64,000 bases of DNA from Falsiroseomonas oleicola (GTDB taxonomy: Bacteria; Pseudomonadota; Alphaproteobacteria; Acetobacterales; Acetobacteraceae): the NCBI RefSeq assembly GCF_019029495.1, contig NZ_JAERQM010000008.1, positions 62,001 to 126,000 on the forward strand. The letters run 5' to 3'. The notes beneath the pieces are model-generated. The model was given only the letters and a program-made list of their open reading frames with translations. It did no database searches and was not told the origin of the DNA. This document shows, in pieces, positions 36,989 through 55,975 of the stretch (within the stretch, counting starts at the first letter, position 1; each line of letters opens with the position of its first letter). The translations under genes were made by a program, and so were the position numbers.

Positions 36989-37273
36989 TCAGACTCCGGC
37001 CGTCCAGCGGCCGAGCAGGAAGCCGAACAGCACGGCGCCGCCCAGCAGCGCCACGACCTCCCCGAACATGGCATGGGCCAGCGGCAGGCCGAGGGTAATG
37101 AGCGCCACCAGCAGCGCCACCTTCCACCAGCGCGTCAGCCAATCCAGCCGCGCCGGCGCCGCCGCCTTGCCGCGCGGCCGGGACGCGCCCTTGGCGCGGC
37201 CGGCGGCGGGGCGCGGGCTGGCCGGGCGGGTGCGGGGGGCCCGAGCCGGGGCCTCAGGCGGCGGCACGACCAA
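36989..37273 (-). CDS. Small membrane protein, hypothetical
   Basis: 94 residues. A basic, Pro/Arg-rich N-terminus (about 40 residues) is followed by [23 protein letters not shown] and [18 protein letters not shown], two membrane segments. It overlaps the end of thyX by 20 bases and precedes the HD-hydrolase gene by 11 bases, so it lies within a compact minus-strand operon. No known domain; the start is uncertain. Confidence 0.6.
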
Positions 37274-38195
37274 GCGTCTCCATCAATTCGCGCCATTCGC
37301 GCTTGGACAGGCCGGAGGCCGCCTGGTCCACCGCCTCCCCCGCCAGCATCCGCCGCAGGATGCCGAGCATCTGGGCGGAGAGGGTGACGGCGCCCAGGCG
37401 GTAGTCGCGGAAGGCCGCGGTGGCGATCGGCACCCAGGCCTCGGCGCTTTGCATCATCGCCTCGGCATAAACGCGGATCTCGTACTGGGCGTGGGCGTCG
37501 GCGCGCAGCGACAGGAAGTGGAACAGGTTGTGGAGGTCCGTCTTCCAGTACCATTGCGTATAGGCGTTCAGCGTCAGGTTCATTCTCCCGAGTTCGCGGG
37601 CCAGCCCCTGCCGGCCCGGATCGATCGGGTCCCCCTGCTCATCCTCGTTCAGCATCTCGACATAGTGGTCGTAGTTGCGGGTCGCATCCTCCCGCAGCAG
37701 GTCCAGGACCCGTGCGGCTTCCGCGCCCTCCAGCACTGCCCCCCGGCCCTGCCGGTTCATGGAGGACTGCGCGGCCAGGTTCTCGGGGGCCGGGATGTAG
37801 AATTCGCGGTCGAGGATCGAATAGCGCGCCGAGTATTCGTTCACATTGGCGGTGCGGTGGCGGATCCATTGCCGGGCGACGAAGATCGGCAGCTTCACGT
37901 GATACTTGATCTCGCACATCTCGAAGGGGGTCGAGTGGCGGTGACGCATCAGGTAGCGGATCAGGCCACGATCCTCGGTCACCGCGCGGGTGCCGCGGCC
38001 ATAGGAAACGCGGGCAGCCTGCACGATGGCGGCATCGTCGCCCATATAGTCGACCACCCGGACGAAGCCGTGGTCGAGCACCGGGGTGGCGGTGAACAGC
38101 ATGTCTTCCAGGGCCGGCACGGTCGGCCGCCGGGTGGCATGCGCGGCGCTGCGCGCGGCGTCGATTTCCTGCTGCTGGGCGTCGGTGAGCGCCAT
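37254..38195 (-). CDS. thyX: FAD-dependent thymidylate synthase
   Basis: 313 residues. The ThyX signature appears as [15 protein letters not shown], preceded by [21 protein letters not shown], where substrate and FAD contacts lie, and followed by [24 protein letters not shown]. ThyX makes dTMP from dUMP with methylenetetrahydrofolate and reduced FAD. The ATG at 38195 matches family starts; an in-frame start at 38255 is less likely. The gene heads a minus-strand operon and diverges from the ssrA gene. Confidence 0.96.
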
Positions 38196-38313
38196 GACGA
38201 GTCGTCCAAAGGTCAAAGGTGGCGCTTCACTAGCCCATGACGCCGGGGGCGGCACCCCCTTTGCGGGTCGGCACCACCTGCCCCTGGATTCTGCCGCGCG
38301 ATGCGCCTACATA

Positions 38314-38640
38314 GGTGTCGTCGCCTCGGCGACTATGGTGATAAACGCGACCTGGAATAATCGTTGCGGACCCGGGGGCAGTGCCCGGCGCCTCCACCAA
38401 ACCCTGCCTCGGCAGGACCATGGGGGCGAAACAGCTTCGACGCGCGTGGTAAAGAGGTCGTTTTTGCCCGGCATTGTACCGCCGTTATCGGGCTAATCTC
38501 TAAGTGCGAACGACAATAGCCGCGAGGCTTACGCACTCGCTGCCTGAATAAGGTAAGCGCGGTTCGGGGGGCACCGGGCAACAGAAGCCCCCCACTCTCA
38601 CGCCTCTTTCGCACCCGGCGCCCCGGGACTATGGTCCGCG
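38314..38640 (+). ncRNA. ssrA: tmRNA, circularly permuted two-piece form
   Basis: The acceptor piece lies first and ends in CGCCTCCACCA at 38389-38399; its T-arm stem CCGGG/CCCGG is visible. After a 22-base spacer the coding piece starts GGGGGCGAAACAGC at 38422. Its first seven bases pair with CGCCTCC of the acceptor piece and place a G-U wobble at the third pair, the alanine identity element. The tag frame runs from 38506 to the TGA at 38545-38547 and encodes ANDNSREAYALAA, ending in the ClpXP-type ALAA. A pseudoknot-like GGGGGG/CCCCCC pairing follows at about 38566-38592. This permuted order is the alphaproteobacterial form; processing removes the spacer. Outer ends are approximate. Confidence 0.95.
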
Positions 38641-38655
38641 CAAAGGGAATTCCGC

Positions 38656-39156
38656 ATGAGTGATGACGCACGTCCGGCCGACAGCCTTATCCCCTATGAC
38701 CGCTGGACCGACGACGCGCTGCGCGAGGTCGTGATGCGCGCGCTGGAGCTGGCGGGGCGCGAAGGCCTGCCCGGCGAGCACCATTTCTATATCACCTTCC
38801 GCACCGACCATGCCGGCACCAAGGTTCCGGGCCATCTGAAGGCCCGCTACCCGCAGGAAATGACCGTGGTCCTGCAGCACCAGTTCGAGGCGCTGACGGT
38901 CGACCGGGTCGCCAACCTGTTCTCCGTGCGGCTGCATTTCGGCGGCGTGCCCTCCACCCTCGTGGTGCCCTTCGCCGCCCTGGCCGGCTTCGCCGACCCC
39001 GCCGTGCGCTACGGCCTGCGCTTCCAGCCCAGCATGGAGGAGGCCCCGGTCGAGGAACCCGCGCCGCCCGAGCCGGAAGCCGCCCCCGCCCCGCCGGAGG
39101 CCCCCGCCCAGGTGGTCAGCCTGGACGCTTTCCGGCGCCGCCCCGCGCGGGACTGA
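38656..39156 (+). CDS. sspB: ClpXP adaptor SspB (alpha type)
   Basis: 166 residues. The core (LIPYDRWTDDALREVVMRAL to about residue 120) is the SspB tag-binding fold, with YITFRTDHAGTKVP and YPQEMTVVLQHQFE. An acidic, Pro/Ala-rich linker leads to the C-terminal ClpX-binding peptide QVVSLDAFRRR. It tethers ssrA-tagged proteins to ClpXP. It starts about 15 bases after the estimated end of the permuted ssrA gene, with AAAGGGA as ribosome-binding site, so tag and adaptor genes are neighbours on the same strand. Confidence 0.93.
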   Translation: MSDDARPADSLIPYDRWTDDALREVVMRALELAGREGLPGEHHFYITFRTDHAGTKVPGHLKARYPQEMTVVLQHQFEALTVDRVANLFSVRLHFGGVPSTLVVPFAALAGFADPAVRYGLRFQPSMEEAPVEEPAPPEPEAAPAPPEAPAQVVSLDAFRRRPARD

Positions 39157-39246
39157 TCCCGCCTGCCCCGACCATCCGGGGCTGAATTCCTGCCGACCCC
39201 ACGAGGCGCCGCCCACCCTGCGTGCCGGCGCCCACGGAGAACCGCC

Positions 39247-40920
39247 GTGTCCGCACCGCTCGACCTCGACTCGCCCGTGATCGCGCCGACCCGGCCCGAG
39301 GGCTTTCGGTACAGCCCGATGTATCCGCTGGGCGCCGATTCCACGCCCTATCGCAAGCTGGACATCCAGGGCGTCAGCACCGCGACCTGCGACGGTCAGA
39401 CCGTGCTGAAGATCAAGCCACAGGCGCTCGAAGAACTGGCCTTCGCCGCCTGCAAGGACGTCTCCCACCTGCTGCGCCCGGCGCACCTGGCCCAGCTCGC
39501 GAAGATTTTGCAGGACCCGGAGGCGAGCCCGAATGACCGCTTCGTGGCGCTCGACCTGCTGAAGAACGCGAATATCGCCGCCGGCGGCGTGCTGCCCATG
39601 TGCCAGGACACCGGCACCGCCATCGTCTTCGGCAAGAAGGGCCAGCGCGTCTGGGTCGAGGGCGATGAGGAGGAGGCGCTGAGCTACGGCGTCCACCGCA
39701 CCTATACCGAGACCAACCTGCGCTATTCGCAGATGGCCCCCCTGACCATGTGGGACGAGGTGAATACCGGCAACAACCTGCCGGTGGAATTCTCCATCAT
39801 GGCGGAGCCGGGCGATCACCACGCGGATGAGATGAAGCTGATGTTCGTCCTCAAGGGCGGCGGATCGGCCAACAAGACCTTTCTCTATCAGCAGACCCGG
39901 GCCGTTCTGAACAAGCCGAAGCTGCTGGCCTTCCTGGAAGACAAGATCAAGACGCTGGGCACCAGCGCCTGCCCGCCCTACCACCTGGCCATCGTCATCG
40001 GCGGCACCAGCGCGGAGGCGAACCTCAAGACGGTGAAGCTGGCCTCCACCAAATGGCTGGACGCGCTGCCGACCGAGGGCAGCAAGGCCGGCCACGCTTT
40101 CCGGGACGTGGAATTCGAGGCGGAAGTCCATAAGCTGACCCAGAACCTGGGCATCGGCGCGCAATTCGGCGGCAAGTACTTTTGTCATGACGTGCGTGTG
40201 GTGCGGCTGCCGCGGCACGGGGCTTCGCTGCCGATCGGGATCGGCGTTTCGTGCTCGGCCGACCGGCAGATCAAAGCCAAGATCACACCGGAAGGGGTGT
40301 TCCTGGAGCAGCTGGAGCAGGATCCGGCGCATTACCTGCCGGCGGCGACCGACGAGATCCTGGGCGGCGACGTGGTGCGGATCGACCTGAACCAGCCGAT
40401 GGCGGCGATCCGGGCAGAGCTGTCGAAGCATCCGGTGAAGACCCGCGTCTCCTTGACCGGCACGGTGGTGGTGGCGCGCGACATCGCCCATGCCAAGCTC
40501 CAGGAACGGCTGGATCGTGGCGAGGGTCTTCCCGACTACCTGAAGAACCATCCCGTCTATTACGCCGGCCCCGCCAAGACCCCCGATGGCTACGCCACGG
40601 GCAGCTTCGGCCCGACCACCGCCGGGCGCATGGACAGCTATGTCGAAGCCTTCCAGAAGGCCGGCGGATCGCTGGTGATGCTGGCCAAGGGCAATCGCAG
40701 CAAGGCGGTGCTGAAGGCCTGCCAATCCTACGGCGGCTTCTACCTGGGTTCCGTCGGCGGCCCCGCCGCCCGGCTGGCGCAGGACTGCATCCGCAAGGTC
40801 GAAGTGCTGGAATATCCGGAGCTTGGGATGGAGGCCGTCTGGCGGATCGAGGTCGAGGATTTTCCTGCGTTCATCGTGGTGGATGACAAGGGGAACGACT
40901 TCTACGAAGGCCTGGAATAG
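39247..40920 (+). CDS. fumA: Fumarate hydratase, class I ([4Fe-4S])
   Basis: 557 residues, the fused alpha-beta form. Cluster cysteines include C119 in [11 protein letters not shown], and others occur in GTSACPPYH and GVSCSAD. The C-terminal domain contains [33 protein letters not shown] and [10 protein letters not shown]. It hydrates fumarate to malate in the TCA cycle with an oxygen-sensitive cluster. The start is GTG at 39247 with GGAG upstream. The DUF1272 gene begins directly after its stop. A second, unrelated class II fumarase is encoded at 43843-45258. Confidence 0.95.
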
Positions 40921-55154: not shown

Positions 55155-55585
<431 letters not shown>

Positions 55586-55975
55586 CACTCATACCAGCGG
55601 CCCTTCCGCGTGACCGCTCCAGGCCCCCCTCAATTGCCGGGCGGAAGCCTCCGGTTTCCTCGGCTTCGCCGCGCCGAAGGCGCGCCTGCGGCACGACGCA
55701 TAGGCCGCGGCGCGTCGGGGCAGCGCCCCGACCGGGACGCTCGGACCGGTCAGGAGACCGGCCCGCTGGTATCGTTCCTGTCCCGCCAGCCAGTCGTATC
55801 GACGGCGCGAGGCGCGAGAACACAAGAACAAATCGCGAATACATGAAGCACCCCACGATCACGCGCAGTTTTCTCCGGCGGCCGGGAAGAGCCGATCGCT
55901 ACTGATCTGTTAATGCGTGTTTTTTCTGTGCACGTCCCAGGCGCCACCGGGAATTTAGCTTGCCTGCCCAGAAAA

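Follow-up and report, generated by a model that had tools for sequence, protein, structure and literature searches.

In the 64,000-nucleotide stretch of Falsiroseomonas oleicola DNA analysed here (the window), the two-piece ssrA gene and the sspB gene that follows it likely make up an ordinary alphaproteobacterial pair for trans-translation and clean-up, probably transcribed together in many species and with a tag and tag reader that co-evolve by charge. The last of these is the new part: covariation among genomes points to a tag and a reader that evolve in step through matching charges. The permuted ssrA would yield a two-piece tmRNA; this RNA would rescue stalled ribosomes and append (A)ANDNSREAYALAA to the incomplete protein. 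SspB, probably made in many species from the transcript leaving ssrA, would bind the ANDN end of the tag and hand the protein to ClpXP, with its residues 97 and 76 matching in charge the tag residue just after ANDN. The features concerned are these:

37254-38195, minus strand: thyX, the divergent upstream neighbour (TIGR02170).
38281-38319, plus strand: conserved, promoter-like leader at the start of the alpha_tmRNA model (Rfam alignment; putative function).
38320-38399, plus strand: acceptor piece of the two-piece tmRNA, with CCA end (sequence, Rfam, ARAGORN; 5' boundary predicted).
38400-38421, plus strand: spacer, presumably removed, with a possible 5-bp hairpin (sequence reading).
38422-38596, plus strand: tmRNA coding piece (sequence and Rfam; 3' end predicted by the model).
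38506-38547, plus strand: tag reading frame ANDNSREAYALAA and stop (ARAGORN, sequence reading).
38597-38655, plus strand: 59-nt gap, with CTATGG at 38629-38634 (possible -10 element of an sspB promoter) and AAAGGG before the start codon (gap comparison).
38656-39156, plus strand: sspB, ClpXP adaptor for ssrA-tagged proteins, 166 amino acids (Pfam PF04386, PDB sequence relatives).
38881-38883, plus strand: codon of SspB Q76, whose charge covaries in other genomes with the residue after ANDN (charge scan).
38944-38946, plus strand: codon of SspB G97, whose charge likewise covaries in other genomes with that residue (charge scan).
39247-40920, plus strand: class I fumarate hydratase, the downstream neighbour (Pfam Fumerase and Fumerase_C).

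The Rfam alpha_tmRNA model (RF01849) matches positions 38281-38596 of the plus strand over its full length (cmscan, 241.3 bits, E=8.2e-69, above the gathering score of 50), and this is the single match in the whole assembly. ARAGORN also calls a permuted tmRNA, with a coding part at 38506-38547 and the tag ANDNSREAYALAA, whose frame closes with small hydrophobic residues followed by the stop TGA; with the tmRNA-carried alanine counted in, the tag is AANDNSREAYALAA. Read from the sequence, the acceptor piece closes with CCA at 38397-38399, a 22-nt spacer capable of a small hairpin follows, and the coding piece opens at 38422 with GGGGGCG opposite the partner strand CGCCUCC. The layout of acceptor piece, spacer and coding piece given in the first-pass annotation is thus confirmed by cmscan, ARAGORN and sequence alike, and the G-U wobble that it placed at the third acceptor pair is present (G38424-U38393); the Rfam match that it called for was found, although it begins at 38281, ahead of the 38314 at which the locus had been taken to start. 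Cutting at the spacer would, from this layout, produce the two-piece RNA. The leader at the start of the match carries CTGGAT (38284-38289) and, 18 nt on, TACATA (38308-38313); comparable CTxG...CCTATAT leaders are found in 11 other members of the Acetobacteraceae, and a consensus scan of 38150-39260 does not call the window leader as a promoter. Processing of tmRNA precursors is expected to fall to RNase P, whose RNA (bacterial class A) is also encoded in the window, at 55158-55586 on the plus strand (Rfam, 278 bits).

The identity of the next gene on the same strand, annotated in the first pass as sspB, holds up against both Pfam and solved structures. Its product matches the SspB profile PF04386 at E=1.7e-39 (135.8 bits, curated cut-off 27), the only SspB-family match in the assembly, and sequence comparison places it with the solved SspB proteins 2QAS (E=1.9e-30), 2NYS and 2QAZ (E=2.4e-28), the similarity spanning residues 5-141. 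The alphaproteobacterial adaptor represented by 2QAS and 2QAZ, that of Lessner 2007, is accordingly a sequence relative of the window protein over those residues, and the window protein is set apart from it by neutral residues at 76 and 97. In the class alignment the C-terminal VVSLDAFRRR is conserved; we take this to be the ClpX-binding tail. Membership of this family is what suggests that the window SspB binds the tag and ClpX and delivers to ClpXP, as membership of the tmRNA family suggests the tagging itself. The closest named relatives belong to Falsiroseomonas, Acetobacteraceae: the nearest SspB among 80 named loci is that of Falsiroseomonas bella (78% identity), and a tag identical to that of the window occurs in a Falsiroseomonas metagenome-assembled genome (L261).

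The acceptor-spacer-coding order, the G-U third pair and the whole-model match are shared with the two-piece tmRNA of Caulobacter crescentus; the window tag differs in its middle from the tag that the first-pass annotation gives for that species, and no structural difference is seen. The pathway roles in the Escherichia coli SspB/ssrA system are the same as those of the window pair. The gene order is not shared: E. coli K-12 carries sspB behind sspA near 3.376 Mb, and smpB near 2.755 Mb, which is presumably also the site of ssrA. PMC3985003 describes the circularly permuted tmRNA gene, citing Keiler 2000 for its function in Caulobacter, and, with reference to Lessner 2007, considers ClpXP with SspB to be perhaps the dominant route in alphaproteobacteria. 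Neither the adjacency nor the covariation was found as the subject of a paper in the open literature searched, a scope outside which Lessner 2007 and Chien 2007 fall.

The adjacency is not peculiar to the F. oleicola genome. Among 143 evenly sampled alphaproteobacterial genomes, a tmRNA was matched in 140 (in 138 of them above the Rfam cut-off) and SspB in 133; counted on the 138 strong matches, with two weak-match genomes and secondary matches left out, 132 have both genes, and in 94 of these sspB lies at most 1 kb downstream on the same strand. The remaining 38 pairs are apart: 15 on the same strand at 1.2-8 kb, one at 797 kb, 3 on opposite strands and 19 on different contigs, some of these last because the contig is broken at the tmRNA. 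Within the Acetobacteraceae a tmRNA is found in 59 of 60 genomes, with sspB downstream in 46 of 58 loci, thyX upstream on the minus strand in 51 of 58, and fumarate hydratase in 25 of 58, most loci having been taken with only 1.5 kb of flank. A further 30 + 30 genomes gave a tmRNA in 56, with SspB inside the 1.5-kb flank in 46 of the 56. Retention of the adjacency in relatives, looked for in the first-pass annotation, is thus found at both levels, and in the favoured reading the ssrA-sspB order is old in Alphaproteobacteria. The Sphingomonadales depart from it: no tmRNA was found near sspB in 25 of 25 loci, and all 25 of their SspB proteins have R or K at residue 76. Two nearly complete genomes (G134, G139) yielded no match to tmRNA or to SspB, and one (G006, 4% contamination) has three separate alpha_tmRNA matches above the cut-off.

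Whether the two genes are also transcribed together is a question on which the gap between them bears. The few bases once thought to separate them are in fact 59 nt. Across the class the gap, measured in 91 of the 94 adjacent pairs (three gaps of more than 320 nt were left out), has a median of 68 nt and a minimum of 8 nt and is shorter than 40 nt in 29 of 91; start codons were taken as those nearest to 10 codons before the SspB profile, so that individual gaps may be off. Gaps shorter than 40 nt favour shared transcription in the genomes that have them, and from gap lengths ssrA and sspB are probably cotranscribed in many species. The 39 gaps measured in Acetobacteraceae are longer (45 to 236 nt, median 94) and are enriched in certain 6-mers: CTATGG (5 against 0.3 expected), GCTATG (5 against 0.2), GTCGCA (7 against 0.6) and TGTCGC (8 against 1.3). 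These could mark a separate sspB promoter, and in the window CTATGG stands 22 nt ahead of the sspB start codon. Calls over 38150-39260 give no terminator-like site and no plus-strand promoter-like site, the sole promoter call being on the minus strand. With no terminator called and a possible promoter in CTATGG, the window may use read-through, a promoter of its own, or both; in Acetobacteraceae generally, the window included, sspB may have its own promoter besides the shared transcript. Two further comparisons were without effect: T content downstream of the tmRNA is not significantly different in 91 adjacent and 41 non-adjacent genomes (p=0.07), and the last 113 nt before the sspB start fold no better than shuffled sequence (z=0.72).

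The competing explanation, to which we give somewhat under an even chance, is that ssrA and sspB are neighbours by ancestry only, with ssrA terminated, sspB served by its own promoter and the order not selected. The enriched 6-mers, the long Acetobacteraceae gaps, the pairs separated in 38 of 132 genomes and the 25 Sphingomonadales loci all speak for it; yet gaps of 8-39 nt offer scant space to a promoter that does not extend into the tmRNA, a terminator was not found in the window, and the order is kept across most of the families sampled. The co-regulation proposed in the first-pass annotation accordingly is favoured by the short gaps and by the lack of a terminator call in the window, and is weakened by the long family gaps and their CTATGG-type motif. 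Against it that annotation had set a separating promoter and terminator together with an unconserved adjacency: what is found is a conserved adjacency, no terminator call and a possible CTATGG promoter element.

Of 131 genomes with SspB, 128 retain the tag motif [ASC]NxN, as do 3 of the 6 that have a tmRNA but no SspB match; loss of ANxN where SspB is missing is as expected if the motif serves SspB. The three SspB-less genomes that lack it (G034, L071; G129, L068; G072, L119), two of which share a genus code, have the tags AKSDYAEYALAA, AKRDYAEYALAA and ANESYAIAA. Tags of at least 20 residues occur in 14 of 137 class genomes (for example G082, L149; G103, L156; G038, L157), and also at L397; several long tags have two NDN motifs or a shifted ANxN, such as ANDNVAFVAANDNTVVEVAVAA, and some of these frames may have been misread by the programs.

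Covariation of tag and reader was scanned in the class sample. Tags were read in 137 of the 138 genomes (21 by hand, where ARAGORN failed or misread); 131 genomes have both tag and SspB, and the 114 with a short tag starting ANDN formed the charge-scan set. Across 891 combinations of an SspB column with a tag position, charge correlation is at its most negative for residue 97 and position 5, the residue right after ANDN (r=-0.60, 33 genomes with opposite and 0 with like charges); residue 76 with position 5 ranks third (r=-0.40, 11 opposite, 0 like). Twelve of the 14 tags with D at position 5 go with R or K, 17 of the 26 with E go with K or R, and 9 of the 12 with R go with D or N. This covariation suggests a position facing the tag for residues 76 and 97. 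Acidic residues stand at both 97 and 76 in the genomes of five unusual tags that carry a basic residue within the motif or after it (G014, G080, G114, G096, G133). In the window the trio of S (tag), Q76 and G97 is neutral throughout, which fits the charge pattern without testing it.

The pattern recurs in 58 new distinct SspB proteins with ANDN tags: residue 97 gives 18 opposite and 3 like (r=-0.53; the same-charge exceptions are L388, L395 and L404) and residue 76 gives 12 opposite and 0 like (r=-0.52), with two other pairs more negative and one positive pair, residue 157 with C-8, equally strong (r=+0.63). Fifteen of the 58 were drawn from clades around genomes with already known pairs and so were not blind; the other 43 were picked by family code with their own SspB unseen, many from families with charged tags. 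In these 43, residue 97 again forms with position 5 the most negative of 510 pairs (15 opposite, 3 like, r=-0.53, permutation p=0.00015); residue 76 contributes only 1 opposite and 0 like. Pooled over 172 genomes, a set that leaves out 46 Acetobacteraceae and 36 named genomes, the two sites rank first and second (51 opposite and 3 like at residue 97, 23 and 0 at residue 76), and for the 90 charged tags residue 97 or 76 has the opposite charge in 70 cases, a like charge in 3 and neither in 17. In Acetobacteraceae G occupies residue 97 almost without exception, and K76 accompanies each of the two D tags. Charged tags are few in the 80 named loci: residue 97 has 2 opposite and 1 like, residue 76 has 1 opposite and 0 like. 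Searching by DNA pattern for basic or acidic tags proved too strict, each of the two finding 5 of 386 genomes.

That such covariation might be a by-product of shared ancestry or base composition, with no contact between tag and SspB, is very improbable. When tag and SspB charges evolve independently in three states on an SspB tree (built without the columns tested) or a tmRNA tree (built without the tag frame), none of 2000 simulations gives a correlation as strong as that observed, for either site on either tree; on the SspB tree a stricter count, opposite minus like, is equalled in 52 and in 101 of the 2000 runs. The by-product explanation gains something from the weak support for the SspB tree, on which an independent-pairs sign test rested on 1-2 usable pairs, and from families that, read by hand, show no joint switch of tag and SspB (f68, f85, f39): f85 retains a basic residue 97 after its tag lost the acid (L340 against L342 and L343), and f68 does so although its tag gained a base (G068 against L388). 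Against it stand, besides the simulations, the repetition in 43 new genomes and the joint switches, also read by hand, within f20 (E with K97, R with N97), f84 (E with K76, R with N97, K with D97) and f24 (V with G97, R with D97).

A requirement of linkage for the covariation was rejected: charges match in 18 of 21 genomes with the genes apart and in 24 of 32 with them adjacent, so that the covariation is not a consequence of adjacency. The co-evolution of tag and reader foreseen in the first-pass annotation is therefore supported by the charges at SspB 97 and 76, but its tie to the gene order is not.

A bolder version of the co-evolving pair is, in our estimate, evenly poised between true and false: the two genes would be an ancestral unit, with sspB translated in short-gap lineages from the trailer of the tmRNA precursor, and an electrostatic code acting through 97 and 76 (D/E with K/R; R/K with D/E or N) would have allowed specificity to be re-tuned repeatedly and independently. 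The usual view of the tmRNA tag is that of a ClpX signal whose front half is loosely conserved. If the charge code is true, that front half would be under selection by the adaptor, and the code, testable by simple swaps in laboratory strains, would tell which tags each adaptor can read; the adjacency of the genes would offer a ready-made way of testing whether the two are produced in step.
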